Positions 30,914 through 43,391 of a stretch of DNA of 43,391 bases are shown here, piece after piece. The number at the start of each line of letters is the position of its first letter. The stretch's first letter is position 1. The notes beneath the pieces are model-generated. The model did no database searches. It was not told the origin of the DNA and saw only the letters and a program-made list of their open reading frames with translations. Both the position numbers and the translations under genes were made by a program. This stretch comes from a virus, in the IMG/VR virus record IMGVR_UViG_3300020202_000035, positions 1-43,391 of that record; one strand, given 5' to 3'.

Positions 30914-30934
30914 CAGACTAAATTTCAGACTAAA
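30914..30934. repeat. Paired CAGACTAAA repeats, right attP arm
   Basis: CAGACTAAA occurs at 30914-30922 and 30926-30934, just before the integrase start at 30942. It matches the pair at 30703-30721. The position over the integrase leader would let the integrase repress its own gene. Confidence 0.66.
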
Positions 30935-30941
30935 GCAGACC

Positions 30942-32099
30942 ATGAAGCGCAAAATTCCCAACGTTTTCGAGACTTCTATGCATGGAAGCAGCAGTTGGGT
31001 TGCGGATCTGCGTTATCATGGCGGGCAACGGGAGTATTTCAAAACTAAAGCTGAAGCGCAAGGACGAGCGGAAGAAGTCTTTAACAAGATTTTCAATCCA
31101 GGAGTAAAGGTCGACAACGTTCCGCCTGAGCTCATCCTCGACGCGAAACGAGGAATGGAAGTGCTTCAGCCTCTTGGAGGAAGCCTTCTCAAGGCCTGCG
31201 AGTTCTACGCCGATTATTTGAAGCAGAAAGCTAAGGGCAACGTCACACTCAGAAAGGCCGCGGACGATTGGCTTGAATACAAGAAAATGGAAAATGTCTC
31301 TTCGAGCACCATCACCAACCACACGACGCGACTAAATTCGCTATGCGCTCGATACGGAACCAGGTTGATTCACGAGATCGGCTTCAAGGAGATTCACGCC
31401 TGGCTCCACGGACTCGAGCTCTCCACTTATGGTAAAATCGATTACCGTAAGACAGCCAACGAGCTTTTCGAATGGGCGATTTTCCCTCAAGAGTGGATCG
31501 ACAAGAACCCATGCGCTCGGATCAAATTGAAGCTAAAGGGTGAAAAAGAAGTTTCCATCTTCTCGATTAAGGAAGCTCAGGCGCTCTTCCATGCCGCGAA
31601 AAAATCAGATCCTGATATTTTACGCTACGTCGTTCTATGCATGTTTGCAGGCCTTCGACCAACTGAAGCTTTCAAAACTACAAGGGAAGATATCCGAACC
31701 AAAACCAATGACATTCGCGTTCACTCAGGCAAGACAGGCCGCTTCCGTTATGTTCGCATGGAAGAAGGAGTTGCCAAGCTTTTAACGAAAGGCAAATGGA
31801 AGGGCGCTCTAATTCAGGACAACTTCGCGAGGCGATGGGATCTTTTGCGCTACAACCTTGGATACAAGGTTTGGATTGATCCGCGATACCTTATAGGGCG
31901 AGAGGACAAAGTGAAGCGTTCACCGTGGCCTCATGACGTCATGCGACATACGTATTGCAGCTACCATCTTGCCTATTTCGAGAACGAGGCTTTGACCGCA
32001 CACTTGGCAGGCCATGACGTGAAGGTTTTGCGGAAGCACTATCGACAATCAATACCAAAGGCAGAAGCGAAGAAGTTTTGGGATCTGCTTAAAGATTAG
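30942..32099 (+). CDS. int: Tyrosine recombinase (integrase)
   Basis: A 385-residue site-specific recombinase that integrates and excises the phage. An N-terminal arm-binding part (about 1-80) and a SAM-like core-binding domain (about 85-190) precede the catalytic domain. Active-site residues are visible: Arg239 (AGLRP), Lys264 (SGKTGR), His331 and Arg335 (HDVMR), His358 (LAGH) and Tyr367 (HYRQ). The start is set at the ATG at 30942, because the longer frame begins with TTG inside the tRNA fragment. It ends 11 bases inside the convergent hicA-like gene. Confidence 0.92.
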   Translation: MKRKIPNVFETSMHGSSSWVADLRYHGGQREYFKTKAEAQGRAEEVFNKIFNPGVKVDNVPPELILDAKRGMEVLQPLGGSLLKACEFYADYLKQKAKGNVTLRKAADDWLEYKKMENVSSSTITNHTTRLNSLCARYGTRLIHEIGFKEIHAWLHGLELSTYGKIDYRKTANELFEWAIFPQEWIDKNPCARIKLKLKGEKEVSIFSIKEAQALFHAAKKSDPDILRYVVLCMFAGLRPTEAFKTTREDIRTKTNDIRVHSGKTGRFRYVRMEEGVAKLLTKGKWKGALIQDNFARRWDLLRYNLGYKVWIDPRYLIGREDKVKRSPWPHDVMRHTYCSYHLAYFENEALTAHLAGHDVKVLRKHYRQSIPKAEAKKFWDLLKD

Positions 32100-32283
32100 G
32101 AGGAAGCGGGCAGTCCAAGTGTCTTAAAATTGTTCTCGCAGTAAAACGCTTAACTTCAACAGCTCTTGGAACCGAGCAGACACGCCCCGTTAACGGATTC
32201 TTCCAGATGGAATGCTTTGCACCCTCTCTTGCGAGAATGCACCCACAACTTTGAAGGATGCGAAGGAGCTCGCGCCGCTTCAA
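32089..32283 (-). CDS. hicA: HicA-like mRNA interferase toxin
   Basis: A 64-residue protein of the HicA type: KRRELLRILQSCGC, then REGAKHSIWKNP with the catalytic His at residue 24, and AVPRAVEV-like sequence near the C-terminus. HicA cleaves mRNA in cells and is blocked by HicB. Here the order is antitoxin first, toxin second (hicBA), with ATGA overlap, so synthesis is coupled to the antitoxin. The 3' end overlaps the integrase stop by 11 bases on the opposite strand. Confidence 0.84.
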   Translation of the reverse strand: MKRRELLRILQSCGCILAREGAKHSIWKNPLTGRVCSVPRAVEVKRFTARTILRHLDCPLPPNL

Positions 32284-32525
32284 GGAAGAGCTACTTCTTC
32301 AGTTTTCCTTACACCAAAAACGCGAGAGGCTTCCATCCGATTAACCTCAAGGACGTCTTCTAGAGCAGAGACCAAGTTTTCCATTAGTTCTTCTCTCGTG
32401 TTTCCTTCAGAAATAACACCAGGAACTTCCTCTACTATTCCAATCCAGCCACCCTCTTCTTGACGGATTCTGGCTGTAAAACCATGTCGTACCAAGGGAT
32501 TTGGACGCCGTGTAAGACGATTCAT
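32280..32525 (-). CDS. hicB: HicB-like antitoxin
   Basis: An 81-residue protein with the HicB partial RNase H-like fold: FTARIRQEEGGWIGIVEEVPG, EGNTREELMENLVSALEDVL. It would bind and neutralise HicA. The ATG at 32525 is chosen over a TTG at 32543, because AGGTG stands six bases before it. No separate DNA-binding domain is long enough to be obvious; the short C-terminus may carry one. A sigma70 promoter with a palindromic spacer lies upstream (32577-32604). Confidence 0.82.
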   Translation of the reverse strand: MNRLTRRPNPLVRHGFTARIRQEEGGWIGIVEEVPGVISEGNTREELMENLVSALEDVLEVNRMEASRVFGVRKTEEVALP

Positions 32526-32576
32526 AACAAACACCTTATTCAATCTTTAACTCCACGCAACTCCAAAATATACCAA

Positions 32577-33045: not shown

Positions 33046-33324
33046 TTATTGTGAAGAACATGTTTTCTTTGAAAGAGCATCGACCTTAATCTGCTCCTCG
33101 AGAGCCTTCCTTCTAAAATAAAGAGCGATCCACTCCCCATCTCCTACTCTGGCAAAAATCGCTATTCCATTGATGGTTGCCGCAGCAAAAAGGACAAAGC
33201 ACTCGAACGAGTCTATAGAATATGAGTTCCAGTTATTTTTATTAAAGGCTTGGTATGCTATAGCTAGAAGAGATAGGTTCGCCCAAACAGCCAGCACCCT
33301 GCACGCGATAATTAACTTGTTCAT
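33046..33324 (-). CDS. Small two-segment membrane protein
   Basis: A 92-residue protein with membrane segments near residues 6-26 and 40-58, followed by a charged cytoplasmic tail (YFRRKALEEQIKVDALSKK). Its ATG overlaps the stop of the ribbon-helix-helix gene (ATGA). It is likely expressed in lysogens with its neighbours. No family is recognised. Confidence 0.7.
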   Translation of the reverse strand: MNKLIIACRVLAVWANLSLLAIAYQAFNKNNWNSYSIDSFECFVLFAAATINGIAIFARVGDGEWIALYFRRKALEEQIKVDALSKKTCSSQ

Positions 33325-33533
33325 TTCTTTTTCCTTTTCTTTTGCTTCATCGCTTTATCAAAATCCACAGGCATAATGGCCTTGATTCCGTTTTTTTGCA
33401 CGTAGCGTATCACGCCGTCCACAGCCTTTCGAACAATGCTGGCCACACTCATCTCTGATTCTTTCGCTATTTTTTCTAATGCTTCTTTTTGATCCTCAGA
33501 GATTCTAAACCCAATCCAGCCGTGCTTTTTCAT
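33321..33533 (-). CDS. Ribbon-helix-helix DNA-binding protein (leftward)
   Basis: A 70-residue protein beginning MKKHGWIGFRISEDQKEALE, with the second part KESEMSVASIVRKAVDGVI, the strand-helix-helix layout of Arc/CopG-type repressors. A very basic C-terminal tail (KQKKRKKK) may add DNA contacts. It is divergent from the rightward ribbon-helix-helix gene at 33742, as repressor pairs in phage switches often are. It probably regulates this region. The ribosome site is weak. Confidence 0.78.
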   Translation of the reverse strand: MKKHGWIGFRISEDQKEALEKIAKESEMSVASIVRKAVDGVIRYVQKNGIKAIMPVDFDKAMKQKKRKKK

Positions 33534-33700
33534 CCTATCTGCTATAGCGAGCTGATTGCAAGCCTGCTTGTTTATTTTTGTTGATCATTGATTATATTTT
33601 TAATCTTTTCACTTGCTCCGCCGATGAACATGGAGTAATGGAAACCCCGCATCAATTTCTAGGGCAGCCCCTATTCCCAAATGAACTCAGAAATAATATG

Positions 33701-33729
33701 TTGACACGTTTCTCGTCACGGTGTAAATA
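33701..33729 (+). promoter_or_regulatory. Early rightward promoter (sigma70-like)
   Basis: A perfect -35 TTGACA (33701-33706) is 17 bases from TAAATA (33724-33729). The palindrome at 33720-33733 covers the -10, so bound repressor would block it. It would drive the ribbon-helix-helix, excisionase-like and probably downstream early genes. Confidence 0.66.
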
Positions 33730-33733
33730 CACC
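33720..33733. promoter_or_regulatory. Operator-like palindrome, copy 1
   Basis: GGTGTA-AA-TACACC, two perfect six-base arms with a two-base centre, overlaps the -10 of the rightward promoter. The same palindrome with centre TA occurs at 34045-34058. Two copies in front of two successive regulatory genes point to one shared repressor. Confidence 0.75.
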
Positions 33734-33741
33734 TTCAACAT

Positions 33742-33933
33742 ATGCCAAACCAACGCAAAAAAGGCAAAAAGTTCTTGGGCACCTGGTTCTCACCAGAGGA
33801 GCTGGAAACTCTACGCCTTCTCGCAAAGCGCGAAGGCAAAACAATGTCACAAGTGTTGAAGGATCGTATTCATGAATATCTTAAAAAAAACCAAGACGCG
33901 AAAAACAAAACTGGTAGGAATCTGGATAAATAA
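33742..33933 (+). CDS. Ribbon-helix-helix DNA-binding protein (rightward, first)
   Basis: A 63-residue protein with KKFLGTWFSPEELETLRLLA then GKTMSQVLKDRIHEYL, the fold pattern of a CopG/Arc-type repressor: a beta strand containing 'GTWFS', helix A and helix B. A basic C-terminal tail ends it. It is the first gene after the operator-controlled promoter, so it may be the autorepressor. Its 3' end overlaps the next ribbon-helix-helix gene by 62 bases in another frame. Confidence 0.78.
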   Translation: MPNQRKKGKKFLGTWFSPEELETLRLLAKREGKTMSQVLKDRIHEYLKKNQDAKNKTGRNLDK

Positions 33934-34045
33934 GGAAGAGAAAGATCGCCTTGTTAAAATGGCGCAGAAAGACGGTCGAAGTCTTTCTAATTTCATCAAG
34001 AGAGAAATTCTTCGAATCCCTTCGAAGAAAACTTTTTGCCAATAG
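33872..34045 (+). CDS. Ribbon-helix-helix DNA-binding protein (rightward, second; overlapping)
   Basis: A 57-residue protein in a frame different from its neighbour: KTKLVGIWINKEEKDRLVKMA, then GRSLSNFIKREILRI. The strand-helix-helix pattern, with 'VGIWINKEE', is similar to the preceding protein, so the two look like tandem paralogues or partners of a heterodimer. It overlaps the first gene by 62 bases and ends at the second operator. Confidence 0.72.
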   Translation: MNILKKTKTRKTKLVGIWINKEEKDRLVKMAQKDGRSLSNFIKREILRIPSKKTFCQ

Positions 34046-34058
34046 GTGTATATACACC
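34045..34058. promoter_or_regulatory. Operator-like palindrome, copy 2
   Basis: GGTGTATATACACC is a perfect 14-bp palindrome directly before the ATG at 34060 of the excisionase-like gene. It shares both arms with 33720-33733. Binding here would block the start site, and could also stop transcription from upstream. Confidence 0.76.
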
Positions 34059-34059
34059 C

Positions 34060-34266
34060 ATGCGATTCGATAAATCCATTCTGACTCTGAAAGAGTTTGC
34101 GGCCGAAGTCGGCCAGCATCGCGACACCGTGATACGCTACATCATCCTTAAAGGAAAATGTCGTTTCACGCGAAATGGTCCGCGTGGCCAGTACCGCATC
34201 CGCCGAGAATGGGCGGATGAATATCACAACCATCACACCTTTGGCGGAAACGCGTACGGCAAATGA
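34060..34266 (+). CDS. Excisionase-like or MerR-type helix-turn-helix protein
   Basis: A 68-residue protein with SILTLKEFAAEVGQHRDTVI (helix-turn-helix) followed by a wing and GQYRIRREWADEYHNHH, the order of small excisionase-family (DNA-binding, winged HTH) proteins. Such a protein could steer the integrase toward excision or act as a Cro-like regulator. The ATG at 34060 is chosen over a TTG upstream at 34036. The operator ends one base before the ATG, and no ribosome site is left, so initiation may be leaderless. Confidence 0.76.
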   Translation: MRFDKSILTLKEFAAEVGQHRDTVIRYIILKGKCRFTRNGPRGQYRIRREWADEYHNHHTFGGNAYGK

Positions 34267-34510: not shown

Positions 34511-34540
34511 AAAGGCTCAACGCGCCAACGTCGAGCCTTT
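34511..34540. terminator. Imperfect hairpin between control and recombination genes
   Basis: AAAGGCTC and GAGCCTTT enclose a loop with a further short ACG/CGT pairing. In the plus direction the following T run is only three long, so termination would be weak. In the minus direction six T follow, which is a better terminator. Early transcription into recT probably reads through. Confidence 0.5.
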
Positions 34541-34557
34541 GCTAACAAAAACAAACC

Positions 34558-35526
34558 ATGAATCAAGTAATCGATAAACCGCAAGAAGTCAACCTTGCTA
34601 AACAAAGCAATGGAACCATCCGCGATTTGCTTCAAAAACAAAAGCAGCAGATCGCCCTAGCGCTTCCAGGACATCTCAATGCCGACCGTATGATGCGAGT
34701 CGCGCTCACCACGATCAATAAGAACCCCAAGCTGGCCAGTTGCACGCAAGCAAGTCTGCTTGCCTGCATCATGGATTGCGCCGCTCTTGGATTAGAACCT
34801 GATAACCGACGAGCGCATCTGATTCCATACGGCGACAAATGCACGCTCATCATCGATTACAAGGGTTTGGTCGAACTCATGATGAGAACAGGCCAGGTTT
34901 CATCGATCCACTCTGACGTCGTTTGCGAAAACGATGTGTTCTCCTACAACCTTGGAATTGTTGAGACGCACAAGATCGACTTCAGACAGCCTCGCGGAGA
35001 AATGTACGCGGCATATGTCATCATCACCTTCAAGGATGGATCGAAAAAATGCGAGGTGATGACACGCGAAGAAATCGATTCCATCCGCAAGCGATCGCGG
35101 GCTGGCAAGGATGGACCCTGGGTAACCGACTATCATGAGATGGCCAAGAAGACTGTCTTTCGCCGTGCTTCCAAATGGGTGCCGCTTTCGGCCGAGCTAC
35201 AAGAAACCCTCGAACGCGACGGCGATGTTTTAGACGTCCACGCCGAGAAGATCGTCGATATCAAAAAACCGCTCTTCTCTAAGCCCGACGAAGCGATTGA
35301 CCTTCCTAATGAAGCCACCGAGGAATCTCCGCTTCCCTCTTCCGACGGAATGAAGACCCGCGAGTTTAATCGCATTTGCCAGGATCAGAAGCTCGGACTC
35401 GGGGAAGTCCTCAACCATCTTGGCGAGCTCGGATATCCTTCCTTCGAAGAAGTTCCCGACAACGTCTTTGAAGCCATCAGGAAGAATCCCGCGGCATTCG
35501 CCAAGAAGATCCAAGCAACGAAGTAG
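34558..35526 (+). CDS. recT: RecT-family single-strand annealing protein
   Basis: A 322-residue protein. RecT motifs are clear: RMMRVALTTINKNPKLASCT, SLLACIMDCAALGLEPD, AHLIPYG and CTLIIDYKGLVELMMRTG. The core is residues about 20-215, and a variable acidic C-terminal tail follows. The protein anneals homologous strands in phage recombination. It works with an exonuclease, here probably the nuclease at 36581. The order RecT, small genes, nuclease is a common module. No strong ribosome site precedes the ATG. Confidence 0.9.
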   Translation: MNQVIDKPQEVNLAKQSNGTIRDLLQKQKQQIALALPGHLNADRMMRVALTTINKNPKLASCTQASLLACIMDCAALGLEPDNRRAHLIPYGDKCTLIIDYKGLVELMMRTGQVSSIHSDVVCENDVFSYNLGIVETHKIDFRQPRGEMYAAYVIITFKDGSKKCEVMTREEIDSIRKRSRAGKDGPWVTDYHEMAKKTVFRRASKWVPLSAELQETLERDGDVLDVHAEKIVDIKKPLFSKPDEAIDLPNEATEESPLPSSDGMKTREFNRICQDQKLGLGEVLNHLGELGYPSFEEVPDNVFEAIRKNPAAFAKKIQATK

Positions 35527-41357: not shown

Positions 41358-42122
41358 GTGAATGAAACAAAGCCAACACACCTCGATCTCTTTAGCGGCA
41401 TCGGCGGCTTTAGCCTCGCAGCCGAGCGTTGCGGATTCCGCACAATCGGATTCTCAGAGATCGACCCCTACGCCTCCGCCGTCCTCAAAAAACACTGGCC
41501 AGACGTCCCTAATTACGGAGACATCCGAAACATCCCATGCGAAGAACTCCGAGGAACTATTGCTCTCCTTACAGGTGGGTTTCCGTGCCAGCCTTTTAGC
41601 GTTGCCGGGTCGAAACGTGGAGATCGAGACGAGCGCCACCTATGGCCGCTCCTTGCCGAAATCATTGGCAAAGTTCGACCCCGTTTCTGCCTGTTGGAAA
41701 ACGTTTCAGGGTTGCTTTCAATTTCTAACGGAAGGGTCTTTGGAGCCATTCTCGGAGACTTGGCCTCGCTCGGGTATGATGCTCTCTGGAATTGCGTACC
41801 AGCCTCAGCCGTTGGTGCGAATCACCAAAGAGACCGAGTCTGGATTGTTGCCTACAATGCGGAAGGCTTTAACGGGAAGCCTGTCACCGCATCGATGCAA
41901 GGACAAGTTCAACAATCTGGAAAGCGTTCTATCGCGCCAGATGTGGCCGACACCAGACGCGAGTCAAGCCCCACCTTGGAGCAAGTAATTGGTGGGCAGT
42001 TGAACCCTCAATTTGTCGAGTGGTTAATGGGCTACCCAATAGATCACACCGCCTTAGATGCCTCGGAAATAGTATCGTCCCGCAAGTCGCGGAGATCTTC
42101 TTCAAAGAAATTAGAAAGCTAG
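41358..42122 (+). pseudogene. C5-cytosine DNA methyltransferase, frameshifted before its C-terminal motifs
   Basis: The 254-residue frame carries motif I DLFSGIGGF (10-18), motif IV GGFPCQPFS with catalytic Cys77, motif VI ENV (114-116) and motif VIII QRDRVW (157-162). The expected C-terminal part is in another frame: NWWAVEPSICRVVNGLP and RLRCLGNSIVPQVAEIFF (motif X) at about 41987-42127. One extra base, for example in the C run at 41969-41972, would join both into one 256-residue enzyme. Thus the gene is probably broken, or the base is an assembly error or is bypassed by frameshifting. GTG start after leader B. Confidence 0.82.
41362..41988 (+). CDS. Long second reading frame inside the methyltransferase gene
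   Basis: An ATG four bases after the methyltransferase GTG opens a 208-residue frame that overlaps the enzyme almost completely. It encodes TWPRSGMMLSGIAY where the enzyme frame encodes LASLGYDA and onward, then LLPT and WPTPDAS. Proteins with such patterns occur as annotated phage proteins. The same single base that would repair the enzyme would join this frame to GGQLNPQFVEWLMGYP, giving 253 residues. It may be a true overprinted gene, or only a shadow of a highly conserved enzyme. Confidence 0.38.
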   Translation: MKQSQHTSISLAASAALASQPSVADSAQSDSQRSTPTPPPSSKNTGQTSLITETSETSHAKNSEELLLSLQVGFRASLLALPGRNVEIETSATYGRSLPKSLAKFDPVSACWKTFQGCFQFLTEGSLEPFSETWPRSGMMLSGIAYQPQPLVRITKETESGLLPTMRKALTGSLSPHRCKDKFNNLESVLSRQMWPTPDASQAPPWSK

Positions 42123-42145
42123 TCTAACACCTAAATGAATTATTT

Positions 42146-43126
42146 ATGAGCACCAACAAATCAGAGGGAGAGCATCACGGCTCCACCGCAGTAGACGCCG
42201 TTAAATCTCGTGCGCTTTGGGATATAAGAGCCCTTCAAAGTGAGAATAAGTCTCTCAAGGCTCAAGTCTCCTCTCTACAAAAAGAGCGAGACGAGGCCAG
42301 AGGTTGTCTAGACCGTGCCAATAAGCTCACAGGAGCCCAAGCAGATGAAAATGCAGAGATCGTAAGGAAGTTGGAGGCTCAAGTCTCCTCCCTTCAATCC
42401 TCCCTAAAAAAAGCAGAGGAGAAGATAAAGGAGTTAGAGGAAGCATTGAGCGAAGATCCCACTGAACCCCCTCCGTTCACCGTGACAGATATATTCATGG
42501 AGAAAGCTCGTAAGGAAGGAACGCTTAAAACATATAAGCTGGTGCCTGTCAGCCCATCCCCACAGAAGGAAGTCGCTCCCCTGTCCGCTGTAGCCTCGGC
42601 GAAAGAGGATCGCTCCAAACCGTCAGAGGTGGAGGAACTAAGAGGTATTAAATGGCTGATCTGGTCTAATGAACATGAATTATGGTGGAGTCCTGACTCT
42701 AAAGGTTACACACCCCACATCAAGGAGGCTGGAAGATATTCTCTCGATGAGGCGTTGGATATTTGCCAAGACAAGCTTTACCGTCGAAAGCTCCATAATA
42801 TCGGAACGGAGATTCCAGCCGAAGTCATGGTTCCATCCCCTGAATTGATCGAAGTGCTGCAAGCCGAGGGAAAAGCTAATTCCACGGATGACGTGAAACT
42901 CCCCACAGTAGAAGACGTTCAGGCCATATATGCCGAGGGAAACGCCACACCCACGGAGAAGACGGATAACTCCCAAAACAATTCCTTGGACGTCCCCTTA
43001 GAGATTGCAGAGGGGCTATATAAGGCATTGAACGATGCTTGGGAGACTGGGTGTCTTACAAAAGCTCAAGATGTTGCCCTAGCAGCTTATGACAAATGGA
43101 AAGAGCAACAGAATTTGGGGAAGTAA
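42146..43126 (+). CDS. Coiled-coil phage cargo protein with KWLIWSNEH / GYTPHIKEAGRYS domain
   Basis: A 326-residue protein. Residues about 25-100 form a coiled coil with two similar stretches (KAQVSSLQKE and EAQVSSLQSS). After a Pro-rich linker comes RGIKWLIWSNEHELWWSPDS, then GYTPHIKEAGRYSLDEALDIC (about 166-212), a pattern I associate with small conserved phage proteins. The C-terminus is a helical domain (about 280-326). No enzymatic motif is seen. The end NLGK and the hairpin that follows resemble the end of the gene at 1680-2312. Confidence 0.72.
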   Translation: MSTNKSEGEHHGSTAVDAVKSRALWDIRALQSENKSLKAQVSSLQKERDEARGCLDRANKLTGAQADENAEIVRKLEAQVSSLQSSLKKAEEKIKELEEALSEDPTEPPPFTVTDIFMEKARKEGTLKTYKLVPVSPSPQKEVAPLSAVASAKEDRSKPSEVEELRGIKWLIWSNEHELWWSPDSKGYTPHIKEAGRYSLDEALDICQDKLYRRKLHNIGTEIPAEVMVPSPELIEVLQAEGKANSTDDVKLPTVEDVQAIYAEGNATPTEKTDNSQNNSLDVPLEIAEGLYKALNDAWETGCLTKAQDVALAAYDKWKEQQNLGK

Positions 43127-43168
43127 TACGTTGTCCCCGCATTACCCCTTATCCCTCGATTTGAACCA
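43117..43168 (+). promoter_or_regulatory. Recurrent hairpin leader, copy C (upstream of the N4/N6 methyltransferase)
   Basis: GGGGA (43117-43121) pairs with TCCCC (43134-43138). The TCCCCGCA motif, nine bases, ATCC, CTCG, ATTTGAACCA and the ATG at 43169 follow. It matches copies A and B. The stop codon of the preceding gene (43126) lies in the loop. No Shine-Dalgarno is present. Confidence 0.62.
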
Positions 43169-43391
43169 ATGAAGCCCTATTACCAAGATAACGCAGTTAC
43201 AATCTATCATGGGGATTGTCGCGCCATCTTACCGACATTGTCACCCGTCGACTTGGTGCTTACAGATCCACCTTATGGGGTAAACCTAGATTACACAGAA
43301 GCAATAGATGACTCCTTTGAAAATTGGATGTCGCTTATGTGTTTTTTAATTCCAAGTGCGACACGCATGTCAAAGACGCTTTTATTAAGCA
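43169..43391 (+). CDS. Beta-class DNA methyltransferase, N-terminal part; gene continues at 1
   Basis: The ATG at 43169 opens the frame that continues at base 1 after circularisation: YQDNAVTIYHGDCRAILPTL then LVLTDPPYG. The segment from 43265 onward repeats 1-127. The start follows leader C. The whole gene is 675 bases including the stop, coding for 224 residues. Its domains are described under 1-579. Confidence 0.9.
   Translation, partial: MKPYYQDNAVTIYHGDCRAILPTLSPVDLVLTDPPYGVNLDYTEAIDDSFENWMSLMCFLIPSATRMSKTLLLS
43265..43391. repeat. Terminal direct repeat, second copy (assembly overlap)
   Basis: Identical to 1-127. It should be removed to obtain the unique 43,264-bp circle. Confidence 0.93.

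Follow-up and report, generated by a model that had tools for sequence, protein, structure and literature searches.

Small ribbon-helix-helix (RHH) proteins that repress their own synthesis are an already known kind of regulator. CopG, the copy-control repressor of plasmid pMV158/pLS1, is a very small RHH protein which acts as an autorepressor on its own core promoter and on a downstream gene, and Arc and Mnt of phage P22 are likewise small RHH repressors acting at promoters. Other arrangements are established for the control of lysogeny: the lambda CI/Cro switch couples an HTH_3 repressor with an S24 part to a divergent cro gene; L5-type mycobacteriophages carry up to about 30 repressor stoperators per genome, mostly in one orientation (PMC6550527); and MrpR, reported as the master repressor of prophage SPbeta, provides a precedent for lysogeny control without lambda CI (PMC10516654).

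The window analysed here is the whole of a viral record, 43,391 bases in length, in which a tyrosine integrase precedes a cluster of small regulatory genes, pointing to a temperate phage. The features considered are as follows.

30921-32099, + strand: tyrosine integrase (Pfam Phage_integrase and phrog_1)
32089-32543, - strand: HicA/HicB-like toxin-antitoxin pair, HicA overlapping the integrase 3' end
33321-33533, - strand: RHH3, 70 aa, divergent from RHH1 (Pfam RHH_1, 20.9 against a cut-off of 20.5; Arc-like PHROGs)
33701-33729, + strand: putative early promoter with TTGACA (33701-33706) and TAAATA (33724-33729) 17 nt apart, the latter lying under operator 1
33720-33733, no strand: proposed operator 1, GGTGTAAATACACC, an exact palindrome in the putative RHH1 promoter
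33742-33933, + strand: RHH1, 63 aa, N-terminus MPNQRKKG, proposed autorepressor (Pfam above cut-off)
33872-34045, + strand: RHH2, 57 aa, overlapping RHH1 (Pfam RHH_7, 30.8 against 27)
34045-34058, no strand: proposed operator 2, GGTGTATATACACC, an exact palindrome at the junction of RHH2 and the HTH gene
34060-34266, + strand: excisionase-like HTH protein, 68 aa (phrog_66, 'excisionase and transcriptional regulator', E 1.3e-4)
34558-35526, + strand: RecT-like annealing protein (Pfam RecT, E 8.7e-52), a downstream gene of the proposed operon

Small leftward ORFs and RHH3 lie between HicA/HicB and the divergent region, where 208 nt separate RHH3 from RHH1; the rightward order is RHH1, RHH2, the excisionase-like HTH gene, small ORFs and RecT, and the HicAB pair forms a separate leftward unit, apart from this operon. 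The structural genes of the window bear a low-identity resemblance to those of three IMG/VR phages (G001, G002, and G004), and a phage nucleotide search with the window returned no match. DNA methyltransferase genes lie close to both window ends (1-579 and 41358-43391), which suggests that the phage genome is nearly complete and circularly permuted, and a terminator-like 13-bp stem with a minus-strand T-run (34511-34540) stands between the small ORFs and RecT.

We consider it highly likely that RHH1 is an MPNQ-type RHH repressor, acting through operator 1 on its own early operon and through operator 2 on the excisionase-like gene. The half-site spacing of its proposed operators, about 9 bp from centre to centre, is similar to that of CopG, and CopG structures (2cpg and 1ea4) are among the Foldseek matches to its model, none of which reaches E<=0.001. 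Unlike CopG, which controls a plasmid rep gene, RHH1 precedes temperate-phage xis and recombination genes, and has the MPNQ N-terminus and GGTGT half-sites. Arc is also among the best structural matches, but the operator differs from that of P22, RHH1 is tied to the int/xis/early region, and neither an antirepressor gene nor an arc-mnt-ant layout was found among the local genes examined. The sequence-only reading, which had placed this locus closer in spirit to Arc and Mnt than to lambda, is supported as to the Arc/CopG-like action predicted of the protein. It had also reported the lack of a CI-like repressor, which holds for the HTH_3 and Peptidase_S24 families searched in the window, neither of which was detected; the divergent lambda arrangement is accordingly not found there. 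MrpR is comparable with RHH1, a 63-aa RHH protein, as an instance of lysogeny control by a repressor other than CI.

All three small RHH proteins proposed from the sequence score above Pfam cut-offs, and RHH1 and RHH2 overlap by 62 nt, as had been described. RHH1 matches Antitox_RHH (28.4 bits; cut-off 27.2) and RHH_1 (21.8; cut-off 20.5), and reaches the curated cut-off of the RHH superfamily as a sequence match. Its monomer model, of moderate confidence (pLDDT 74), comprises helices at residues 18-31 and 35-57, and the structures returned on top by Foldseek, ParG, Arc, ORF56, and CopG (none at E<=0.001), agree with an RHH repressor. RHH2 is possibly a partner or an antirepressor, and RHH3 possibly an opposing regulator of, or partner to, RHH1. 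The HTH protein matches Pfam HTH_17 below cut-off (E 1e-3), and its start is most likely the ATG at 34060.

Perfect GGTGTA-NN-TACACC palindromes occur exactly twice in the 43,391 bases, so that the two matching 14-bp sites noticed previously are both exact and the only two in the window. No exact match arose in 60 Markov shuffles of the window, and two 6+2+6 palindromes sharing a common arm within 400 bp arose in none of 100 shuffles. The palindromes lie 1-8 nt before an ATG: operator 2 ends 1 nt before ATG 34060, ahead of the excisionase-like gene as had been claimed, and operator 1 overlaps TAAATA. The further claim that operator 1 sits on the -10 of a rightward promoter thus stands as to the overlap, while the promoter itself is putative, if plausible, because its -10 is weak (three of six consensus positions) and was missed by a consensus promoter scan. 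The predicted RHH1 mRNA leader is about 6 nt.

Of the local regulators, RHH1 alone is represented in six further IMG/VR phage contigs (L003-L008), which encode proteins about 33-45% identical to it; in these, the first eight residues, MPNQRKKG, are invariant though the codons differ synonymously. GGTGT-Nx-ACACC palindromes occur in all six, and upstream of the RHH1 relative in five (L003-L006 and L008). In L003 and L004, GGTGTGTACAC is present three times, before the RHH1 relative, an HTH domain and a small TM gene, the site of L003 itself being imperfect; L005 and L006 have GGTGTGAGTACACC before the RHH1 relative and GGTGGGAGTACACC before an HTH gene; and L008 has GGTGTGGCACACC ahead of the relative. 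In L007, GGTGTAGACACC is found twice, downstream, neither copy preceding the RHH1 relative. The second site in L003-L006, before an HTH gene or domain, occupies the same relative place as operator 2. No relative of RHH2, RHH3 or the HTH protein was detectable in the palindrome-bearing phages, and none of the HTH protein among viral contigs. The expectation that the palindrome would recur in related phages beside the same proteins is therefore realized for RHH1 and not for RHH2 or RHH3, and a conserved switch comprising all three RHH proteins is not upheld.

The sequence of the half-site further varies with the protein subfamily. MPNQRKK and MPGQRK proteins are accompanied by GGTGT half-sites, MPSQRKIDK and MPNQRSKDKV proteins by GGTGG, MANQRRKDKR proteins by GGTGA or GGTGT, MPNQPKT proteins of Hedwig-type phages by GGTGC, and MPNQL/MPNQI proteins by AGGTTG-N3-CAACCT. 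Such tracking is the pattern to be expected of a protein and the site that it binds. Each phage also has one dominant spacer, of 4 (the window, G001, G002, and G004), 2 (G005) or 3 (G006), and the dominance of a single spacer exceeds Markov expectation, most clearly among exact copies; that the length is not the same in all phages counts against the proposal.

Searches led by the operator and by the protein extend this pairing beyond viral contigs. Among 84,980 genomes, GGTGT-N4-ACACC followed within 30 nt by an ATG-MPNQ start was found 17 times, and nine of these hits encode RHH-like MPNQ proteins, in Streptomyces (L174, L179, L181, L184, L185, and L186), Saccharothrix (L176), Amycolatopsis (L190) and an Opitutales MAG (L187). 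The eight actinobacterial loci have 3-4 tandem or nearby palindrome copies, whereas the palindrome occurs just once in the 2.2-Mb Opitutales MAG, ahead of the MPNQ-RHH gene. Pfam finds nothing in the actinobacterial chromosomal proteins, so that these, those of Streptomyces included, are assigned to the RHH family by their alignment with L107. This IMG/VR contig, retrieved by the palindrome search alone, carries palindromes at distances of 12 and 45 nt ahead of an MPNQPKT-RHH gene; exact GGTGTAWATACACC near an ATG occurs in at least 120 stretches of viral contigs, about chance level by a rough estimate, and among the matches listed L107 is the sole informative contig, because its neighbour is an RHH gene. 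The MPNQRKKG pattern gave four hits across genome contigs, and no relative. In L187 (7208-7562), another small RHH-like ORF overlaps the MPNQ-RHH gene, an arrangement shared with the window, and this further ORF contains GGTGTTAGTCACC.

An RHH1 profile was then applied to 387 genomes of the phylum of the Opitutales MAG, counting palindromes no more than 110 nt upstream whose arm contains AGGT or GGTG, a rule written after many of the sites in this first test had been viewed, against dinucleotide shuffles. Such a palindrome precedes 19 of 23 MPxQ genes (five being phage genes, the window's included), against 0.15 expected, and none of ten other RHH genes; an operator-like site in the gene's own core promoter, several times between -35 and -10, is conserved across homologues. 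With the same rule over 150 nt in annotated phages and plasmids, sites accompany five of six MP[N/D]Q genes and none of eight others; eight of these 14 loci were obtained after the rule was set and six had been viewed before, and Hedwig and Ecliptus are related, thus not independent. MPxQ genes lacking a site, a point against the pairing, include those of L203, L217 and an M. paragordonae plasmid, and the phylum of the Streptomyces genome offered too few MPNQ genes for a test. The predicted pairing of an RHH1-type protein with its palindrome is found again in phages and plasmids and in the genomes of two or more bacterial phyla.

Together, these comparisons strongly support the palindromes as operators with a local RHH protein as partner. 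Since only RHH1 co-occurs with the palindromes, and half-sites vary with its subfamily, it is very probable that RHH1 represses its own promoter and, via the second site, the excisionase-like gene. RHH1 would bind GGTGT-N4-ACACC in dimeric form, probably with two dimers across the pair of half-sites; at operator 1 these would cover the core promoter of the RHH1-RHH2-HTH/xis-small ORFs-RecT operon, and RHH1 is therefore proposed to repress itself and the early genes. The palindrome overlies the -10 region in the window and in L205, and fills -35-like/-10-like spacing in L187, L210, L206, Rathayibacter and Hedwig, the -35 being TTGACA-like in L187, L210, L206 and Hedwig. As the palindromes lie inside core promoters, the simplest reading of repression is that RNA polymerase is blocked. 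Bound at operator 2, RHH1 would either block a promoter located there or keep transcription from running on into the excisionase-like gene; since no good -35 stands near this site, its role may be at a weak promoter or as a roadblock.

Repression of the operon would hold the prophage quiet. Whether RHH1 does so as the main lysogeny repressor bears on this step only, and not on the claim of autorepression. RHH1 heads the operon which it would repress, a position that by itself gives homeostasis, as with Cro or CopG, and not bistability. It is close to an even prospect that RHH1 is a Cro-like early damper, with lysogeny held by another regulator, whether RHH3 or a protein of unknown family. Along with the position of RHH1, this account draws on the divergent transcription of RHH3 across the intergenic region, and on the separate repressors annotated in two actinophages, close to the RHH gene in Mbo4 (Rhodococcus) and close to the int/RHH region in Hedwig (Gordonia); against it stand the missing relatives of RHH3 in other palindrome-bearing phages, the lack of HTH_3 and S24 repressors in the window and the lack of HTH_3 matches in G001, G002, and G004. 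The reading of RHH1 as the main repressor of lysogeny, and not such a damper, is tentative, and we give it somewhat less than an even chance; the integrase and the missing HTH_3 and S24 repressors speak for it. The compact lysis-lysogeny switch of the sequence-only reading is likewise a candidate role. G001 and G002, which are 80-91% identical to one another over long stretches, each contain ten sites at one mismatch or fewer over their whole records, where 1.0 and 1.5 are expected; some ten dispersed operators with no HTH_3 match are what a phage with a genome-wide repressor would have. Most of the G001 sites are intergenic or just ahead of a gene, and in G001/G002 as in G003/G004 one site falls some 30 nt into a gene that is perhaps the same in both pairs. 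Like L5 stoperators, these are a dispersed operator at about ten places, many between genes; unlike those of L5, they are symmetric and their candidate binder is an RHH protein, and the window itself has two sites only.

More broadly, it may be, though it is less likely than not, that in widespread temperate phages a ~60-residue MPNQ-type RHH protein is the only immunity repressor, acting via dispersed GGTGT-Nx-ACACC operators. If true, operators would stand at the starts of many transcription units, as a symmetric-operator RHH counterpart of the L5 stoperators, and subfamily half-sites would define distinct immunity groups. None of the operator sequences was found in the open-access papers searched, nothing matching an RHH lysogeny repressor of this kind in the open-access literature (most subscription papers lie outside it), and no description there of the MPNQ signature with its half-site family, its spread over at least two phyla or the dispersed sites of G001 and G002. 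The present analysis provides a concrete protein-operator pair for small RHH proteins of phages and plasmids whose annotation so far goes no further than 'Arc-like repressor' or hypothetical, makes it possible to predict an operator from an N-terminus, and renders CI-free lysogeny control directly testable.

The remaining alternatives concern the nature of the pairing itself. It is very unlikely that the palindromes are bound by another protein, be it RHH2, RHH3, the HTH/xis-like protein or a regulator of the host: the HTH gene is next to operator 2, and excisionases can be autoregulators, but RHH1 alone accompanies the site from phage to phage and across phyla, and the one palindrome of the Opitutales genome stands beside an MPNQ-RHH gene. 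Still lower is the probability that RHH1 is an antitoxin or mobilisation-type RHH protein, autoregulating incidentally to a toxin-antitoxin or relaxosome role, as its Antitox_RHH match and the weak matches of RHH1 or its relatives to RelB, NikA, and MobA profiles might indicate; RHH2 and then the HTH gene follow RHH1, with no toxin or relaxase gene downstream. Least credible are RNA hairpins controlling translation, for while GGTG resembles a Shine-Dalgarno sequence and sites lie close to start codons in the window and, at 0-1 nt ahead of an ATG, in some cases in G005, in many relatives the sites either occupy the spacer separating -35 from -10 or form tandem arrays of 2-4 copies at 30-130 nt upstream, and most copies would then fall outside the mRNA. 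A conserved in-frame peptide (GVxT) was also considered as the source of the palindrome and discarded, as frame and coding status differ between sites.

Several further observations accompany the autorepressor proposed here. In G001 and G002, many dispersed GGTGT-N4-ACACC sites stand at the starts of structural gene blocks, and several in G001 (L165/L166) and G002 (L167/L168) are preceded by AACAGATTG, at a variable distance of 1-5 nt. GGTGTATTGACACC of G001, examined as a -35 or a phage-RNAP promoter, has no consistent -10, and its spacing to AACAGATTG varies. In the window, a perfect 9-bp inverted repeat, TTCTTCGAA-TCCC-TTCGAAGAA followed by AACTTTTTG (34008-34029), lies just ahead of operator 2, and is possibly a weak terminator or attenuator inside RHH2. 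Lastly, a direct repeat, TGCTATAGC(T/G)AG, occurs at 33256-33267 and 33540-33551, with some 6 nt separating one of the copies from RHH3 downstream, and could be an RHH3 site or chance.
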